From assembly GCA_019894855.1 (NCBI GenBank), contig JAGXNS010000014.1:378-38800 (forward strand): DNA of 38,423 bases, given 5' to 3'. The notes beneath the pieces are model-generated. The model made no database searches. It was not told the DNA's origin and was given only the letters and a program-made list of their open reading frames with translations. Within the stretch, counting starts at the first letter, position 1, and every line of letters starts with the position of its first letter. The stretch comes from Promethearchaeota archaeon (GTDB lineage Archaea > Asgardarchaeota > Lokiarchaeia > Sigyniarchaeales > SOKP01). Made by a program: the position numbers and the translations under genes. Below are positions 233 to 36,857 of the stretch, one piece after another.

Positions 233-1477
233 ATGTTTGATTATTTAATAAGTGAAAATGCCAAAAAAATTAAAGAAGAGGTACGCTCATTTGTAAGAGA
301 CGATGTTCCTCACTCTTTAATTAAAAAGATGGATAAAGAAGAAATTAACTATCCAACTGAGTTCTTACAGAAGCTCGGTAAAAAAAATCTTATAGGATTA
401 AGGTTTCCTAAGGAGTTTGGTGGTCGAGGCTTAAATTGGGAATGTGAGGTTGTTGCTCTTGAAGAAGTAGGAGTATTAGGGAGCTCATTACCGTGTCTAT
501 ATTCTCTTCCTATAATTACTGGAGAAGCTATGAATTTATTTGGTACTGAAGATCAAAAGTTAAAGTATTTAAAGCCAATGTGTGAAGGTAAAAAGTATAC
601 TGCAGAAGCGCTGACAGAACCAAGAGGAGGTTCTGATTTCTTTGGCGCAACTTGCACGGCTGTTAAAGATGGTGACTATTATATATTGAATGGGGAGAAG
701 CGTTTTGTTGTGGGAGCTGAGGGGGCTGATTTTTTTTTAGTTTATGCTAAGACCAACCTAGATCCTAAATCTGATCCTCGGTCATCTCTTAGTCTATTTC
801 TTGTGGATCGTAGTAAGGGTGTTGAAACGGAATATCTATATGGTCTTTTAGGAACTAGAGGTGGTGGCGCTGGAAGACTTAAATTTGAAGATGTTCAAGT
901 TCCTCAAGAAAATGTCATTATGGGCGAAGGGAAGGGAAGTATAATTTTTTACCAAATGATGGTCCCTGAACGCCTTACAACTGCGTCAGGATCATTAGGA
1001 TCAGCTAGAACATGTCTTCATATTGCTACTAAATATTCAACCAAAAGGAAAGCTTTTGGGCAAACAATAAAAAACTTTCAAGCCGTGAATTTTAAAATAG
1101 CCGATAGCATTACGCTTTTAGATGCCGCGAGGTCATTAGTTTTGAATACTGCAAGAACGATTGATGCGGGAGCGCCATCCGCTTTACAGAGAAGATTAGT
1201 TTCTGAATCTAAGAAATTTTCTACTAAAGCTTGTTGGAAGGTTATTAATAGCGCAATGCAAGTAATGGGAGGAATTGGTTATACAACCGTTTATCCCATT
1301 GAAAGAATATTTCGAGATTCAAGGCTTGGAGAAATTTGGACTGGAACTACAGAAATAATGAATTTAATTATTCAACACGAGTATTATAAAGAATTATTAA
1401 GCGAAAAATGGCTCGATCGGGATGTAGAAAAAGACGCTATTGATGCAGATCACGAAGAGGAAAAACATTTCGGTTGA
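233..1477 (+). CDS. Acyl-CoA dehydrogenase family protein
   Basis: A flavoprotein of 414 residues, the usual length for acyl-CoA dehydrogenases, which oxidise acyl-CoA to 2-enoyl-CoA with FAD. Visible family features are the N-terminal helical domain, the [10 protein letters not shown] segment (about residues 124-133) of the middle beta domain, and the C-terminal helical domain with KRKAFGQTI and QVMGGIGY. The common IYEGT catalytic-glutamate motif reads IWTGT here, so the usual Glu is absent. A Glu in PERLTTAS (about residue 247) lies where isovaleryl- and long-chain-type enzymes carry their base. The ATG at 233 follows a purine-rich AGAGAG stretch. Substrate is unknown. The family call is firm. 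Confidence 0.93.
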
Positions 1478-1531
1478 AATCTATACATGCAAAATTTTCT
1501 CAACAATTTTTTTTAATTTATTCTCTTACAA

Positions 1532-1988
1532 TTATAATGTGCGCCATATTGGATTTCTAACAAGCCAAATCTTTTTTGTTATCGTATATATATCTTCATT
1601 TAAGCTTTTCCAATTTACGTAAGAAATCTGATTATCACTAAGATCTGCGGTATTTAATGTTGATAGAAATTTAAGATCGTCTAATTTTTTAATTCTATTA
1701 TTACTTAGCCATAAATCCTTTAATCTATTGAGAGAATCAATTCTCCCTAGTTCGGAAATTTGATTGTTTTCAAGATATAATTCGACTAAATTTGAAAGAT
1801 TCTCGAGTCCTTTTATTTCGGTGATTTGATTCTCATTCAGGTTCAATTTTTCTAAATTTTCAAGATTCTCAAGTCCTTTTATTTCTGAAATCTTATTTCC
1901 TCTAAGATATAATTTCTCTAAATTAGTTAGAGTTTCAAGTCCTTTTAATTCGGTAATTTGATTGTACTGAAAGCCTATAAGTTTTCAT
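1532..1988 (-). pseudogene. Leucine-rich repeat protein, frame broken at the start
   Basis: On the minus strand a frame open from 1984 to the stop at 1532 encodes about five 22-residue leucine-rich repeats (consensus NQITEIKGLENLSNLVELYL) and an LRR-cap-like end, NPIWRTL. This frame has no ATG at its beginning and meets a stop at 1987-1985. An ATG lies at 1988-1986 one frame away. Removing one A from the AAAA run just after it would give M-K-L-I-G-F-Q-Y-N-Q and then the repeats. The simplest reading is a one-base frameshift by mutation or sequencing error. A TTG at 1846 could start a shorter 104-residue protein. Such short LRR proteins usually mediate protein-protein contacts. Partner unknown. 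Confidence 0.55.
1802..1983. repeat. 66-bp tandem repeats encoding LRR units
   Basis: The segment beginning TCGAGTCCTTTTATTTCGG at 1803 recurs near 1869 and 1935 with few changes, a period of 66 bases, equal to 22 codons of the LRR. Units further along the gene (1532-1801) have diverged and are recognisable mainly at protein level. The near-identity of these copies suggests recent unit duplication. Confidence 0.7.
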
Positions 1989-2027
1989 TTTTTTTTTGTT
2001 TAAATACAATCATATGGAATAATATGT

Positions 2028-2972
2028 ATGATTGAAGATGGACCCAGATCGAATCAATGTCGATTTTGCAAATCGTCATTCTCAGGAGAAATTCTCAAAA
2101 AAATCGAAGTTAATAGAGACGATGTCTACTGCGAAAATTGTGGAGATTTAATAAAAAGAGTCCAAAACAAATATGATTTTAATCCTACTGAAATTATTGA
2201 AAATGACTCTAAAATCAAAACCAATGATACTCCTCCTAAACCTAAAAATGATTTAAAAAGCAACCCGGACGCTTTGCATTACCCAATTGGCCGCATTTTC
2301 TACGACACTGATTTTCCACTAATCTTTAAGAGTAATTTCATTATTGTATTTTCCCGCATTACTTGTTCTCACGCACTGCGATTAGAGCGCGAAGGGCAAA
2401 TCGAATTCGGAGAATCGGAAGTACCTGAAAATGGCCTTAGCGACCTCTATATGTCTATAAGGCATATTCAGGATAAGCGAATTAAGTCTGAATTCCTAAC
2501 TAATCTCCATGAAATTTCTAAGGAAGAATTTGAAAGAAATCTAAAACTCTTACAAGCTAAAATTAAATCCAACCACCAGTATCGGGAAGATTTCATCGTT
2601 TACTCGCGGTGGTTAATAAGTAAGGTGTATCTCATTATATCCATGAAATGGAATGATGATCCTCTTAACAAGTTTGATCGCACCATTAGAGACGATTTAA
2701 GAAAGTTACAATTTTTAAAAATAGACGCAAAAACTACTCAAAATCTTAAGAGTAAAGAGCAAAATATAAAATTAGAGGAAAATGAACAAGAGGCAAGTAA
2801 AAAAGAGAGCTTGATAAAAAACCCGAATGAAAATAATCATAATAGATGGTTAACAGATGAGATTCAAAACTATTTAAAAAATGTAAATGAGAATATTATT
2901 TTTTTATTTGAGCCTTTCGAAGCATTTTCAAGAATGAATGTTTTGTTTGGTTTAGGAAAAGGTATATATTGA
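2028..2972 (+). CDS. Zinc-ribbon protein of unknown function, probable N-terminal part of a broken composite gene
   Basis: A 314-residue frame. Residues about 11-42 form a zinc ribbon, CRFC with 20 residues before CENC, as in TFIIB-like or transposon-associated ribbons. A hydrophobic/helical region follows (about 80-245), then a charged Lys/Glu-rich linker and a hydrophobic end, FLFEPFEAFSRMNVLFGLGK. It ends at a TGA (2970-2972). Beyond the TGA the same frame reads FREWKKIVIK before TAA, and the LAGLIDADG reading frame overlaps. I infer that one longer gene (zinc ribbon, helical domain, LAGLIDADG endonuclease, HTH) was broken here by a nonsense change and a small frameshift. If the frame is intact as it stands, it is a stand-alone zinc-ribbon protein next to a homing endonuclease. 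Function not known. Confidence 0.6.
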   Translation: MIEDGPRSNQCRFCKSSFSGEILKKIEVNRDDVYCENCGDLIKRVQNKYDFNPTEIIENDSKIKTNDTPPKPKNDLKSNPDALHYPIGRIFYDTDFPLIFKSNFIIVFSRITCSHALRLEREGQIEFGESEVPENGLSDLYMSIRHIQDKRIKSEFLTNLHEISKEEFERNLKLLQAKIKSNHQYREDFIVYSRWLISKVYLIISMKWNDDPLNKFDRTIRDDLRKLQFLKIDAKTTQNLKSKEQNIKLEENEQEASKKESLIKNPNENNHNRWLTDEIQNYLKNVNENIIFLFEPFEAFSRMNVLFGLGKGIY

Positions 2973-3577
2973 TTCAGAGAATGGAAAAAAATTGTAATAA
3001 AATAATAGCAAAGGATATTTTAGATAGAATGCGTTTGTCTCTTCAAAAACTTATAAAGATTTGGGTTGTAAGTTATCCGCATCTATCAGACAATTTATTG
3101 AATGCCCAGAGAGATATAATAGACATTATCAACGAATATGAGATAAAATTAAACCCAAAGCCATCATCTCATTATCAAATGTATAATCATCATCCTAAAT
3201 TCAAAAGAGATTACTTTAGATTAATAAATACAAAAGATAAGGCTTATTGGTTAGGATTTATTTTTGCTGATGGTTGGATTAGTAGAGCTCTCAAAAAATC
3301 AGGCTATTATTATCGAATGGGAATTGGCTTATCTACCAAAGATAAGAGTGTTCTTGTTAGTTTTTGCAACACTATAGGTTTAAATCAAGATTATATACGA
3401 GATCGTTTTAGTGGTAGTGATTTTAGTGAAAAAAAATATCCAATAAGCTTAATTAGATGGGGTGATCAGGAATTTGCTGGAGACGTCATCAATTTAGGTG
3501 TAGAATATGAATATAGTCAAAAAAAAAAAGACGGATCAAAAACCCTAAACTGCCTATTATGGATAGTCGAGAGTTGA
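2969..3577 (+). pseudogene. LAGLIDADG homing endonuclease, first half
   Basis: A 202-residue frame starting TTG at 2969 or ATG at 2981. A helical segment comes first (about residues 15-65), then the first LAGLIDADG helix, YWLGFIFADGW (about 91-101), whose acidic residue binds the catalytic metal. The strands of the first alpha-beta-beta unit follow. The frame runs into an A11 tract at 3519-3529 and ends out of register shortly after. The second half of the enzyme continues in the -1 frame from there. The 5' end overlaps the zinc-ribbon frame by four bases. Either the A-run is slippery and read through by -1 frameshifting or RNA polymerase slippage, or the gene is decaying. Confidence 0.7.
3519..3529 (+). 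other. A11 tract, candidate slippery site
   Basis: CAA followed by an unbroken run joins the two halves of the LAGLIDADG enzyme, which lie in frames offset by -1. The run contains the A AAA AAA heptamer that supports -1 slippage of ribosomes, and polymerases also slip on it. A one-base sequencing or assembly error in the homopolymer would look the same. Confidence 0.4.
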
Positions 3578-4188
3578 TGTTGGCATTTCTTTTAGGTTTT
3601 TATGATGGTGATGGAACTCTTGCTTTCAATAAAACTACAAATAGAATTCAACCTAGTCTTATTTGCTCGAACAAAAATTTCTTACTTGAAATAAAAAAAC
3701 ATTTTGGTATTAAAAATAGTATATCGTCGAGAGTTATTGAAAAATATAGTATAAGAAGAGAAAAGATCGTTAAAACTCAGGCGAATTCGTTGAGCATTGG
3801 TGTAAAACTTTTTGAGGAAATGTTAAAGAATTATAGGTATAGTATTGTTCGCAAGAAAGTCGATTTGCCTTTTTTCAAAGAGTATTTTACTCCAAAAGAG
3901 AAGCCACCTACACCTCAACGAGTCTGGTTGAGAATTAAGCTCCAAAAAAAAACTCTAGAAGAACTACTAAATGTAATATCTCCAAACATGATTGCTAAGA
4001 TATTAGGAGTATCCCGATCCACCATTTTAAACCTTATTGAAGAGAATGGAATTGGCTTTTTTGCCGCTAGTCATTATATAAGAATAATTCGGTCAGTTCG
4101 TAATCAAGGTAAATCTTCTGATTTTTACGAACCATATAATCAATGGACAAATTATTTAAAAAAAATAGGTAAATTTAGTAATAAATAA
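3559..4188 (+). pseudogene. LAGLIDADG homing endonuclease, second half with C-terminal HTH
   Basis: This -1 frame continues the enzyme. KNPKLPIMDSRELM precedes the second LAGLIDADG helix, AFLLGFYDGDG (about residues 9-19 of this piece), so the whole is a monomeric two-motif endonuclease. Near the C-terminus, MIAKILGVSRSTILNLIEENGI is a helix-turn-helix, probably for DNA recognition. An ATG exists at 3559, but independent expression is less likely than frameshifted expression or decay. Codon use is as AT-rich as the surroundings. The locus lies directly upstream of the phosphofructokinase gene that carries two BHB introns. Confidence 0.7.
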
Positions 4189-4230
4189 TATCTTATTATT
4201 TATTCAATCTACCAAATTAAAAACTACTAA

Positions 4231-4236
4231 GGTGAT
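4231..4236 (+). promoter_or_regulatory. Ribosome binding site fixing the TTG start of the phosphofructokinase gene
   Basis: GGTGAT matches the anti-Shine-Dalgarno end of archaeal 16S rRNA and sits five bases before TTG at 4242. The codons after that TTG read MTIKKIGILTGGG, the canonical N-terminus of the family. Confidence 0.7.
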
Positions 4237-4241
4237 TTTAC

Positions 4242-5451
4242 TTGACAATAAAAAAAATAGGGATTTTAACGGGCGGCGGAGTCATGTTAAAGGCTTTCCT
4301 TAACTGCCGTTTACTGCCCGGGTTTAAACTCAGTTATTTATGGGATAATGTTAAAGGCTTACGATGCAAGAATAGAATGTATTGGAATCCTTAAAGGTTG
4401 GAAAGGCCTTATGGAAAATCTTACAATTCCACTCGATATTGCAGAACATGACGACTTGCATACTATTGGAGGGACGATATTATACACAAGCAGAACTAAC
4501 CCATTTAAAGGAGCTGAATCAAACGAAGAAAGATCAAAAAAAATAGCAAAAAAAATTGACGAACTTGACATTGACGCTCTTATTGCTATCGGTGGAGATT
4601 TAAGATGATATACATTTTAAACCTGAAACGATACTCTAAGTGTTGCCAACGCTTTATTTAAATTTTCAAATATCAATGTTGTAGGTTGCCCAAAAACGAT
4701 TGATAATGACCTGCGTGGGACACATTACACGTTCGGGTTCTGGAGTGCGGTACAGCTCGCTTCTAACGCAATGGATAATTTGACCACCACAGCAAGGTCC
4801 CATCAAAGAGTTTTTGTTGTAGAGATTATGGGCCGAGACGCCGGATTTCTCACAATGTATAGCGGACTTTCTGCTGGTGCTGATATAATACTAATCCCTG
4901 AAACGCCGTTTGATTTTGAAAAAGAAGTTGTTGATGTGCTTAGAAAAAGAGCAAAAGCAGGATACAAATACCATATAATAGCAACTTCTGAAGGTGCTTA
5001 TCCTAAGAATGAATCATTAGAACGAGATTTTAAAACTATTTCAAAGGAATCCATTGAAAAATTGCCTAAAGACACTTTTGGTAATCCTCTCCTGGCTAAA
5101 TTAAACATATCGAAGATAATTGTTGATGAGTTAAATATGAGAGATGATCTTAAAGAAGTGTTTCATAATAATGGTGTAGATTTTGAATGTAGGAGCGTTG
5201 TTCTCGGTCATACTATGCGAGCTGGAACGCCGAATTCTTTTGATCGAATTTTAGGATTACGATTTGGTCTAGCGGCTATGAAACTTGTTTTAGAAGGCAA
5301 ATTTGGAAACATGGTTTCGCTTCAAGGAAATAAAATTGAGACGATTCCTCTCTCTGAGGGTGTTAAAAAGAAATACATCACAAATGATAACGATAAAATG
5401 GAGTTAAGAGATTTATTGGTTAAAATAAGATATCTATCGAAACAAAAGTAG
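4242..5451 (+). CDS. pfp: PPi-dependent 6-phosphofructokinase, gene split by two BHB introns
   Basis: Phosphorylates fructose 6-phosphate in glycolysis, reversibly if PPi is the donor. Exons are 4242-4281, 4313-4597 and 4628-5451: 1149 coding bases, 382 residues, normal for PfkA/PFP. The spliced product reads ILTGGGDCPGLNSV, then AIGGDDTLSVA, CPKTIDNDL (catalytic Asp), MGRDAGF and a C-terminal sugar-binding part with LGHTMRAGTPNSFDR. The Asp at the second position of GGDDT and the Lys of PKTIDND are the residues known to favour PPi over ATP. Unspliced, the message shifts frame after GGG and meets a TGA after GGD. The TTG start has a GGTGAT site. Without splicing this would be a pseudogene, but the exons are otherwise intact. 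Confidence 0.85.
4282..4312 (+). other. BHB intron 1 in the phosphofructokinase gene (31 nt)
   Basis: Removal joins GGCGGCGGAG to ACTGCCCGGG, giving GGGDCPG in frame. Fold: exon helix 4270-4275 with 4314-4320 (one bulged U); central 4-bp helix GCGG 4276-4279 with CCGU 4307-4310 (three GC/CG pairs and one G.U); 3-nt bulges A4280-G-U4282 and U4311-U-A4313 on opposite strands; intron helix C4283 to G4293 with C4298 to G4306 (two bulged bases), loop CUUU. Cleavage between the second and third bulge bases, as tRNA splicing endonuclease does, lands exactly on the two exon ends. The length is not a multiple of three. Confidence 0.85.
4598..4627 (+). other. BHB intron 2 in the phosphofructokinase gene (30 nt)
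   Basis: Removal joins GGTGGAG to ACGATACTC, giving GGDDTL in frame. Unspliced, a TGA at 4606-4608 terminates translation. Fold: exon helix UAUCG 4587-4591 with CGAUA 4629-4633 (5 bp); central 4-nt segments GUGG 4592-4595 and CCUG 4622-4625 (two GC pairs, two mismatches); 3-nt bulges A4596-G-A4598 and A4626-A-A4628; intron helix of nine consecutive pairs, 4599-4607 with 4613-4621 (one G.U), loop AUAUA. Cutting after the second base of each bulge gives the correct junction. The mismatched central helix makes it a relaxed BHB. Confidence 0.8.
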
Positions 5452-5473
5452 AAAATAATTTCACTTATTACTT

Positions 5474-6043
5474 TTAATTTATTTCTTTAAGTTCGAATTT
5501 TTCAAACGAGTATTTTGATTCATCTTCAGGAATAATATAACTTCCTCCTCCTGTGTCAGTTATTATTAGAGTAAATTTAAAATCTCCCTTCATCGCCTTA
5601 TGGAGATCGTGTAAAATCTTATCAATATCTTCTATTTGAACATCATCCTTATCGAGATTTTTACGATAAATTAAAACGGCACTCTCAAACCTAAATAATA
5701 TCCCTTCAACATTGGTGTAATAAAAATCTGCGGCTGGCCCAGGTTCTACAAATAGTTCCAACTCTGGGATTTCTAATTTTCCAACGGGTGAACGATAGAT
5801 TTTTGATTTTAAATCATTCTCATTTGAAACTCTCAAAGTCATAATTCCTGGAGTATTATTGGTAGTTAAAGGAATTACATCATTATTAGAAAAATTGCAA
5901 ATGTTACACTCAAATTTGATAAGTAACATTTTATCTCCGTCAGGCACATCATAAGTAGTTTTAAGAATTTTGATTTTACCTTTATCACATGAAGGACATT
6001 TGAATGAATATTCTACTTCATCATTTTTTGATTTTTCTGACAA
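5474..6043 (-). CDS. ZPR1-type zinc finger protein
   Basis: 189 residues, the size of archaeal single-module ZPR1 proteins; eukaryotic ZPR1 has two such modules and binds eEF1A. Residues about 15-50 hold the C4 zinc finger (CPSC, then CNIC). The following domain contains GIMTLRVSNENDLKSK and a conserved RSPVGKLEIPELELFVEPG stretch typical of the family's beta-rich domain. The start is TTG at 6043, supported by GTGAT five bases upstream. It converges with the phosphofructokinase gene and stands alone. The archaeal role is unproven; help in folding elongation factor 1A is the likely one by homology. Confidence 0.85.
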   Translation of the reverse strand: MSEKSKNDEVEYSFKCPSCDKGKIKILKTTYDVPDGDKMLLIKFECNICNFSNNDVIPLTTNNTPGIMTLRVSNENDLKSKIYRSPVGKLEIPELELFVEPGPAADFYYTNVEGILFRFESAVLIYRKNLDKDDVQIEDIDKILHDLHKAMKGDFKFTLIITDTGGGSYIIPEDESKYSFEKFELKEIN

Positions 6044-23484: not shown

Positions 23485-23587
23485 TGGGCCCAGGGAGGTT
23501 TTCGTAGAAGCGATAATTTCGCTTTAAAATCGAACTCCCGACCTTCTCGGTGTAAGCGAGACGTAATAACCACTAGACCATGGGCCC
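23485..23587 (-). tRNA. tRNA-Val(UAC) with a T-loop intron
   Basis: Acceptor GGGCCCA pairs with TGGGCCC over seven bases; discriminator A; CCA not encoded. Anticodon stem TCTCG/CGAGA with loop CTTACAC gives anticodon TAC. The T stem GGGAG/CTCCC closes a 37-base loop instead of seven. Removing 30 bases (23528-23499) gives loop TTCGATC and a 73-nt tRNA. Exons are 23587-23529 and 23498-23485. The D stem is weak (one mismatch). Confidence 0.93.
23499..23528 (-). other. BHB intron in the T loop of tRNA-Val (30 nt)
   Basis: Minus-strand fold: exon helix is the T stem GGGAG/CUCCC; central helix UUCG with CGAA (4 bp); 5' bulge AUU and 3' bulge AAC; intron arms of nine bases each (seven pairs, two mismatches) and loop AAUUA. 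Cutting AU^U and AA^C gives UUCGAUC, a correct T loop. The segment sizes (1+9+5+9+4+2 = 30) are identical to intron 2 of the phosphofructokinase gene. Confidence 0.85.
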
Positions 23588-23610: not shown

Positions 23611-23712
23611 CGCAATCGGAGGGATTCGAACCCTCGAGTCCGTTGGACACTGGATTAGCAATCCAGCGCTTTTAGCACGCTTAAGCGTTCTACCAAGCTA
23701 AGCGACGATTGC
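23611..23712 (-). tRNA. tRNA-Ser(GCU) with a D-arm intron
   Basis: Acceptor GCAATCG/CGATTGC, discriminator G, long variable arm GTCC-AAC-GGAC, T arm GAGGG-TTCGAAT-CCCTC. Anticodon stem CTGGA/TCCAG with loop TTGCTAA gives anticodon GCT, reading AGC/AGU codons. The D arm is 17 to 19 bases too long; taking out about 23688-23672 restores the stem GCTT/AAGC and the D loop with GG. No CCA encoded. Lies 23 bases from tRNA-Val and on the same strand. Confidence 0.9.
23672..23688 (-). other. Candidate intron in the D arm of tRNA-Ser(GCU), about 17 nt
   Basis: The extra D-arm sequence contains ACGC-UUAA-GCGU, a small hairpin. With bulges GA^A and AA^A the central four-base segments GGUA and UGCU pair with two wobbles, and GCUU/AAGC gives the exon helix. 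Runs of A at both ends leave the boundaries uncertain by one or two bases. A relaxed BHB is likely. Confidence 0.55.
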
Positions 23713-24803: not shown

Positions 24804-24904
24804 GCACCTGTAGCCTAGTGGTAAGACGCTGGCCTTGAGTAGATAATACGATCAAGTAAGCCAGTGCGCGTAAGCGCTCGGGGGTTCAAATCCCTCCAGG
24901 TGCG
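24804..24904 (+). tRNA. tRNA-Ser(UGA) with a canonical anticodon-loop intron
   Basis: Acceptor GCACCTG/CAGGTGC, discriminator G, long variable arm GCGC-GTAA-GCGC, T loop TTCAAAT. The anticodon stem CTGGC/GCCAG closes a 26-base loop. Removing 19 bases (24840-24858) leaves CTTGAGA, anticodon TGA. Exons are 24804-24839 and 24859-24904. No CCA encoded. Confidence 0.95.
24840..24858 (+). other. BHB intron at position 37/38 of tRNA-Ser(UGA) (19 nt)
   Basis: Central helix CUUG (anticodon loop) with CAAG (intron), bulges AG^U and UA^A, exon helix the anticodon stem. This is the standard archaeal position and geometry. The intron's own helix is minimal. Confidence 0.88.
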
Positions 24905-36266: not shown

Positions 36267-36857
36267 TTAACGTGTTTTCTGACCACAATATTGACAATAC
36301 TTAAGCTCTAAAGGATAAAACTTGTCGCAACTAGTGCATTTTTTTAAAGAATTCTTGATAATCTCTCTTCCAAGCGTCTCAAAAACATTTTCGACATTTT
36401 CTCCAGTCTTTGATGACACACCATGGATGTCTCCTTGAAATTTGTATTTGTCAAATAACTCTTTAGCGTCATCACGACGGACTTCTCTCTGTTTTTCTAA
36501 GTCAATTTTTGCCTCAATTAGTAGCTTAGTTTTGGGATAATTTGGAACAGAACTAATAGTTTTTACCCAATCATGAAGGTCTTCTAGAGAATCTTTATTT
36601 GTTATATCATAAAGCATTAAGGCACCAGAAGCTCCCGATACATATGAGGGAAGTAGAAGACGAAACTTTTTTTCTCCAGCGAAATCCCAAATATTTAAGA
36701 GAATCTCAGTATCATCAACAACTACCTTTTTTGTTTCAAAATCTACTCCAATCGTTGATAAAGTTGATATATCAAATTTGCCTGTTGCATATCTCCTTAT
36801 GAGAGAGGTTTTTCCGACATTTTTAGCCCCAGCTACGATTACTTTAAATTTGATTAT
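36267..36857 (-). CDS. Ras/Rab-like small GTPase with C-terminal zinc ribbon, apparent ATA start
   Basis: 196 residues if initiated at ATA 36857. G1 GAKNVGKTS (10-18), switch region with STLSTIGVDFE, G3 WDFAGE, G4 altered to EAKID instead of NKxD, G5 SSKTGEN. After the GTPase domain, CTSCDKFYPLELKYCQYCG forms a C4 zinc ribbon at the very end in place of a lipidated tail. The frame above the G1 loop has no ATG, GTG or TTG before a TGA at 36866-36864. GTGAT at 36867-36863 sits five bases before the ATA, and the peptide MIKFKVIVAG is a normal GTPase beginning. Asgard genomes are rich in such GTPases. Confidence 0.85.
   Translation of the reverse strand: MIKFKVIVAGAKNVGKTSLIRRYATGKFDISTLSTIGVDFETKKVVVDDTEILLNIWDFAGEKKFRLLLPSYVSGASGALMLYDITNKDSLEDLHDWVKTISSVPNYPKTKLLIEAKIDLEKQREVRRDDAKELFDKYKFQGDIHGVSSKTGENVENVFETLGREIIKNSLKKCTSCDKFYPLELKYCQYCGQKTR

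Follow-up and report, generated by a model that had tools for sequence, protein, structure and literature searches.

A 30-nt T-loop intron in a Lokiarchaeial tRNA-Val gene as a probable member of a lineage-wide class of bulge-helix-bulge mini-introns

A tRNA-Val(UAC) gene of a Lokiarchaeon, a member of the Asgard lineage, is interrupted in its T-loop by a 30-nt intron whose segments have the same lengths as those of an intron in the 6-phosphofructokinase (PFK) gene of the same 38,423-nt stretch of DNA, referred to here as the window. An earlier note on this DNA had taken the match to link mRNA introns to a tRNA intron class within one genome and to suggest movement between RNA classes. The locus raises the question of what introns of one build in a tRNA and in an mRNA have in common. 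We conclude that the tRNA-Val intron is very probably a bulge-helix-bulge (BHB) intron belonging to a lineage-wide class of mini-introns of about 30 nt, predicted to be spliced by the tRNA-splicing endonuclease. T-loop introns, which the note had described as mostly crenarchaeal, occur here in an Asgard lineage and are not a feature of Crenarchaeota alone.

The tRNA-Val gene lies at 23485..23587 on the minus strand and its intron, at 59/60 of the tRNA, occupies 23499..23528. Intron and flanks read GGGAG-TTCG-AT^T-TTAAAGCGA-AATTA-TCGCTTCTA-CGAA-AA^C-CTCCC (^, exon-intron junction), giving 1+9+5+9+4+2 = 30 nt. The BHB is canonical: the T-stem GGGAG/CTCCC forms the outer helix, the central helix TTCG/CGAA is perfect, and both bulges are 3 nt long (3-4-3). 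Within the 9-nt arms, 7 of 9 positions are paired with two mismatches, or 8 pairs form if one bulge is allowed. Removal of the intron in silico leaves a canonical tRNA-Val(UAC) cloverleaf. The adjoining tRNA-Ser(GCU) gene (23611..23712, minus strand) has a 19-nt D-arm intron at 23671-23689 (1+4+4+4+4+2, the BHB being assigned by reading the sequence), which is missing from the earlier note; a tRNA-Ser(UGA) gene at 24804..24904 (plus strand) is interrupted at the canonical position 37/38 by an intron of about 19 nt. Elsewhere in the window, a Ras-like GTPase gene at 36267-36617 (minus strand) has its true start upstream of the listed open reading frame, and AKID where NKxD is expected.

The PFK gene (PF00365) consists of three exons with a TTG start at 4242..5451 on the plus strand. 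Intron 1 (4282..4312, 31 nt) shifts the reading frame and its removal restores GGGDCPG, with exon GCGG pairing with intron CCGU; intron 2 (4598..4627, 30 nt) contains in-frame stops and its removal restores IGGDDTLS. Intron 2 reads A-TTTAAGATG-ATATA-CATTTTAAA-CCTG-AA, and the partition it was said to share with the tRNA-Val intron is real, the loops being ATATA and AATTA, respectively. The further claim of a 3-4-3 BHB in both held for tRNA-Val but not for PFK, where the central 4-bp site, GTGG/CCTG, has two standard pairs only and the BHB is therefore relaxed. Of 51 distinct PFK genes, 10 carry intron 1 and 7 carry intron 2, the others having plain codons; in about 40 relatives the PFK codons are uninterrupted, and both introns are patchy. 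On the PFK exon tree, at least 7 changes are required for intron 1 and at least 6 for intron 2. Across its carriers intron 1 is 31-32 nt long and, as read from the alignment, keeps its splice-site pairing, with exon GCGG opposite CCGT, TCGT, CTGT or CCGC. Comparison of open reading frames across PFK loci recovered intron 2 only. The gene itself is seemingly inverted in place: the order in the window (233-6043) is dehydrogenase(+)-endonuclease-PFK(+)-geneX(-), as opposed to geneX(+)-PFK(+)-acyl-CoA dehydrogenase(-) in relatives.

In this genome, whose closest named relatives are Lokiarchaeota, eight T-loop introns were found by methods that included a general tRNA model. Six are 30 nt long, those of Val, Lys(UUU), Arg(GCG), Thr(GGU), Thr(UGU) and one tRNA on C83, while one on C89 is 31 nt and that of Met is 34 nt. 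A sample of relatives, most of them in the genus, yielded 56 distinct T-loop introns of 29 to 34 nt (30 nt, 38; 29 nt, 7; 31 nt, 6; 34 nt, 3; 32 nt, 2), a census that rests in part on a search model made largely of introns of 30 nt and so favours that length; the set from this genome, obtained with the general model, is less biased. T-loop introns of 30 nt were also found in other genera of the family, and those of tRNA-Met are 31-34 nt. Anticodon-loop introns in the same sample are scattered from 5 to 57 nt, so that the wide scatter of sizes which the earlier note had named as a sign of coincidence is present at that position but not in the T-loop. The 30-nt build was also read from the sequence of a D-loop intron in the same tRNA-Thr(UGU), A-TTATGTAAT-CATTA-ATTACATAA-GGCT-AA.

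In the 9-bp arm of the 30-nt T-loop introns, 84.7% of cells are paired, whereas random re-matching of the arms gave 48% on average and 61% at most. Covariation was analysed in 21 distinct 30-nt introns, of which 92.1% of cells are paired as opposed to 69.0% in shuffled controls; in each of the nine h2 pairs, both partners vary. The sequence of these introns turns over and their length stays. In the comparison of congeners, the tRNA-Val T-loop intron is present in six genomes (G000, G002, G003, G014, G017 and G034) and the gene is uninterrupted in six others (G008, G009, G015, G018, G023 and G035), so that the absence from relatives which the earlier note had proposed to look for was found in several congeners. 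Other relatives have tRNA-Val(UAC) introns of 25-28 nt near 22/23, or of 30, 31 or 37 nt at 33/34, and the gene of G003 has three introns.

Candidate introns of the same 30-nt build interrupt other protein genes, namely those for EF-2, GH38 mannosidase, acyl-CoA synthetase, Zn-alcohol dehydrogenase and Elf1. Scans for BHB structure alone, with length left free, returned chance matches for the most part, and only the exact 1+9+5+9+4+2 build stood apart from the control. A scan for BHBs of this build that close a reading frame only on removal covered the flanks of 40 LAGLIDADG homologs in relatives. Homolog flanks gave 13 matches with a score of at least 18 and 7 with at least 19, as opposed to 1 and 0 in own-genome DNA. 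By length, this excess is largest at 30 nt, smaller at 29 and 31 nt, and absent at 28, 32 and 36 nt. After de-duplication, 12 strict matches remain in 309 kb near homologs, at least 8 of them motif-restoring, versus 2 in about 1.2 Mb elsewhere, a control that excludes PFK and EF-2 genes and is not matched genome by genome. Spliced motifs are HWDRE^WYLPF (GH38), TDSD^EEEQARGITI (EF-2), PSWM^MWNWL (acyl-CoA synthetase), CG^ICGSDVH (Zn-alcohol dehydrogenase), VDHG^YFGN (aldolase-like), IGGE^CQWV and, from a 30-nt candidate in this genome (C104, L218 10777, minus strand), FTCPN^CGEKS of an Elf1-like Zn-ribbon gene. The introns are placed in the most conserved codons, and Pfam matches most of the in-silico spliced products. 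As judged from sequence, exact removal restores the gene product of PFK, tRNA-Val and the other protein genes, and two 3-nt bulges with a 4-bp helix between them are found at the exon-intron junctions of tRNA-Val, EF-2 and GH38.

Exact presence or absence was seen in tRNA-Val, PFK, EF-2 and GH38. The EF-2 intron occurs in G009, G020 and G026; in G034 it lies two codons further upstream and has apparently slid, as if along repeated CAGAT; stops are also found in G025 and G031, and most genomes are without it. Copies in relatives lie at L305 4921-4950, L306 4889-4918, L370 and L366, one of them shifted two codons upstream. GH38 is interrupted in G001, G003, G004, G006, G010 and G034; 30-nt introns at L331 5294, L320 5078 and L322 4910 differ in sequence and have 9-bp arms in common. 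Two further candidates in this genome are a 33-nt one in an alpha/beta-hydrolase-like gene (L220 4511, minus strand, C104; CHPHP^QYGGDMYNNVV) and a 29-nt one before RtcA-like DGSLGEGGG (L226 9177, minus strand, C33), which could equally be a gene boundary. With PFK intron 1, the Met T-loop introns and the 33-nt candidate, the length of 30 nt is not absolute.

The endonuclease that would remove these introns appears from its sequence to be of the heteromeric type. The genome, like most of 58 relatives, has two different PF01974 (splicing endonuclease) genes. The product of the gene on C127 is closest to A. pernix EndA chain B, with the Lys of SKPR aligned with 3p1z_B K44, and the second is closest to M. 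jannaschii EndA; RtcB is also encoded. A conserved lysine in the crenarchaea-specific loop of EndA is reported to be important for the relaxed recognition of substrates (PMC12397907). The enzyme is thus predicted to be a two-subunit (alpha-beta) endonuclease with the crenarchaeal broad-specificity lysine, and the genome to have what splicing of non-canonical BHBs requires. In the tRNA-Val precursor, the T-stem would serve as outer helix, exon bases 54-57 (UUCG) would pair with CGAA of the intron, the endonuclease would cut at both 3-nt bulges and RtcB would join the exons; we infer both cleavage and ligation. Members of the class would be about 30 nt long, with an arm of 9 bp, a loop of 5 nt and a central helix of 4 bp, at sites comprising the T-loops of many tRNAs, one D-loop, position 33/34 and conserved codons of protein genes.

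How, then, did the tRNA-Val intron and PFK intron 2 come to be alike? Chance agreement of unrelated introns in one partition among many would fit the 5-57 nt spread of anticodon-loop introns and the 19-nt intron of the neighbouring tRNA-Ser(GCU), but it is very unlikely given that length and partition recur in 38 of 56 T-loop introns, a D-loop, position 33/34, PFK, EF-2, GH38 and other mRNA introns, and that 30 nt is the length of greatest excess over control. That the insertions are pseudogene features or assembly errors, left unspliced, is more improbable still: the metagenome-assembled genome is incomplete (83.65% complete, 170 contigs, 2.5 Mb), but these introns recur in independent genomes, where compensatory changes are seen and the exons are conserved, and intron removal restores exact codons and tRNA cloverleaves. 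Copying of an intron between tRNA-Val, or another tRNA, and PFK would account for the common partition and length, and large-scale intron transposition among Thermoproteales tRNAs is reported in PMC4033280 and PMC4090602, both citing Fujishima et al. 2010. The 23-nt cores of the two introns, however, are identical at 13 of 23 positions, a level attained in 24% of structure-preserving shuffles; with all genes compared, no pair of cores from different genes rose above the null (P ~0.3 for the best pair); near-identical introns in different tRNAs, of the Thermoproteales kind, were not seen; and the target-site flanks are unlike. Direct transposition is unsupported because core similarity at different sites is no better than in shuffles, and we consider it unlikely. 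The proposed movement between RNA classes thus found no support, while the link between mRNA introns and a tRNA intron class was borne out, the 30-nt build being found in tRNAs and mRNAs of both genome and lineage. We infer that the two introns share their architecture because of a length and structure constraint common to the class; there is no sign of recent copying.

Membership in this class leaves room for a means of spread. Directly 5′ of PFK is a two-motif LAGLIDADG homing endonuclease gene (2969..4188, plus strand) in two frames (2969-3577 and 3559-4188), the switch of frame falling close to a poly-A run at about 3519-3529. Homologs adjoin intron-bearing EF-2 (G009, G020) and GH38 (G001, G003, G010) genes, and none was found beside intron-less EF-2 or GH38 orthologs in a comparison of hit lists. 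These neighbourhoods at PFK, EF-2 and GH38 suggest that mini-introns are spread by adjacent homing endonucleases. In such collaborative homing, a separate enzyme would cut a conserved site in an intron-less allele, repair would copy the intron together with its flanks, often along with the gene for the endonuclease, and the allele would from then on be shielded by its intron, so that introns spread and persist; this would add to splicing by the host and is no alternative to it. The position of introns in the most conserved codons and the 12 exact matches near homologs versus 2 elsewhere (in a control unmatched by genome) are consistent with it. In its first three windows, the 5′ flank of this PFK gene is 0.83-0.90 identical to that of the intron-1 carrier L104 and 0.57-0.73 to that of the sister L058, and it is also nearer to another intron-1 carrier, L087, than to L058, as expected if the intron arrived with co-converted flanks. 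Against it, no homolog was detected next to the majority of intron-bearing PFK, EF-2 and GH38 genes, free-standing endonucleases being found beside a minority of intron-bearing copies; a homolog remnant adjoins an intron-less PFK gene (L088), and the endonuclease of the window is frame-shifted. We judge collaborative homing to have slightly less than an even chance. The full picture, in which Lokiarchaeia have mobile introns of about 30 nt in tRNAs and essential protein genes, removed by the host tRNA-splicing endonuclease and spread or kept by free-standing LAGLIDADG neighbours, is offered tentatively and with marginally less assurance.

Endonuclease homologs also adjoin tRNA genes (L313 711-1901, on C154 of this genome; L326; L330), the one on C154 lying between tRNA-Thr(GGU) and tRNA-Met, both intron-bearing. 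Group I introns were considered and rejected: a ribozyme would not fit into about 30 nt, and Rfam gave no group I match in the window, nor in the seven endonuclease loci searched.

Several known systems resemble the one described here. In archaeal rRNA BHB introns a LAGLIDADG endonuclease is encoded inside the intron; the association of BHB and endonuclease is similar, but the introns here are about 30 nt long, with the endonuclease encoded in a gene beside them. Collaborative homing in phages, known for group I introns and inteins, likewise involves a free-standing endonuclease gene beside the intron or gene that it may mobilise, whereas removal of the introns here would fall to a protein enzyme of the host cell. 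To our knowledge, archaeal protein-gene introns are documented in few genes, such as cbf5. The BHB intron of the cbf5 pre-mRNA shows lineage-specific loss (PMC2738675). Like it, the introns here lie in protein-coding genes and are patchy by lineage; they differ in affecting several genes per lineage, in their length of about 30 nt, in interrupting the most conserved codons and, in some cases, in adjoining homing-endonuclease genes. Non-canonical tRNA BHB introns in archaea are described in the T-arm, D-arm and other positions, with up to three per tRNA, patchy gain and loss and a heteromeric endonuclease (PMC4033280, PMC3293823). These traits of Crenarchaeota, Thermoproteales and Caldiarchaeum recur here in Lokiarchaeia, but with T-loop introns of nearly fixed 30-nt length and differing sequences that give no hint of transposition. 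A search of the open-access literature found no mRNA introns reported for Asgard archaea.

Lokiarchaeia are close relatives of the eukaryotic host. If the reading given here is true, mRNA splicing by the tRNA machinery would be a regular feature of these organisms, and gene prediction in Asgard archaea would mis-call EF-2, phosphofructokinase and other interrupted genes. The near-fixed length of 30 nt would offer a clean handle on what the endonuclease measures, and the link to homing endonucleases, if true, would provide a testable account of intron spread.
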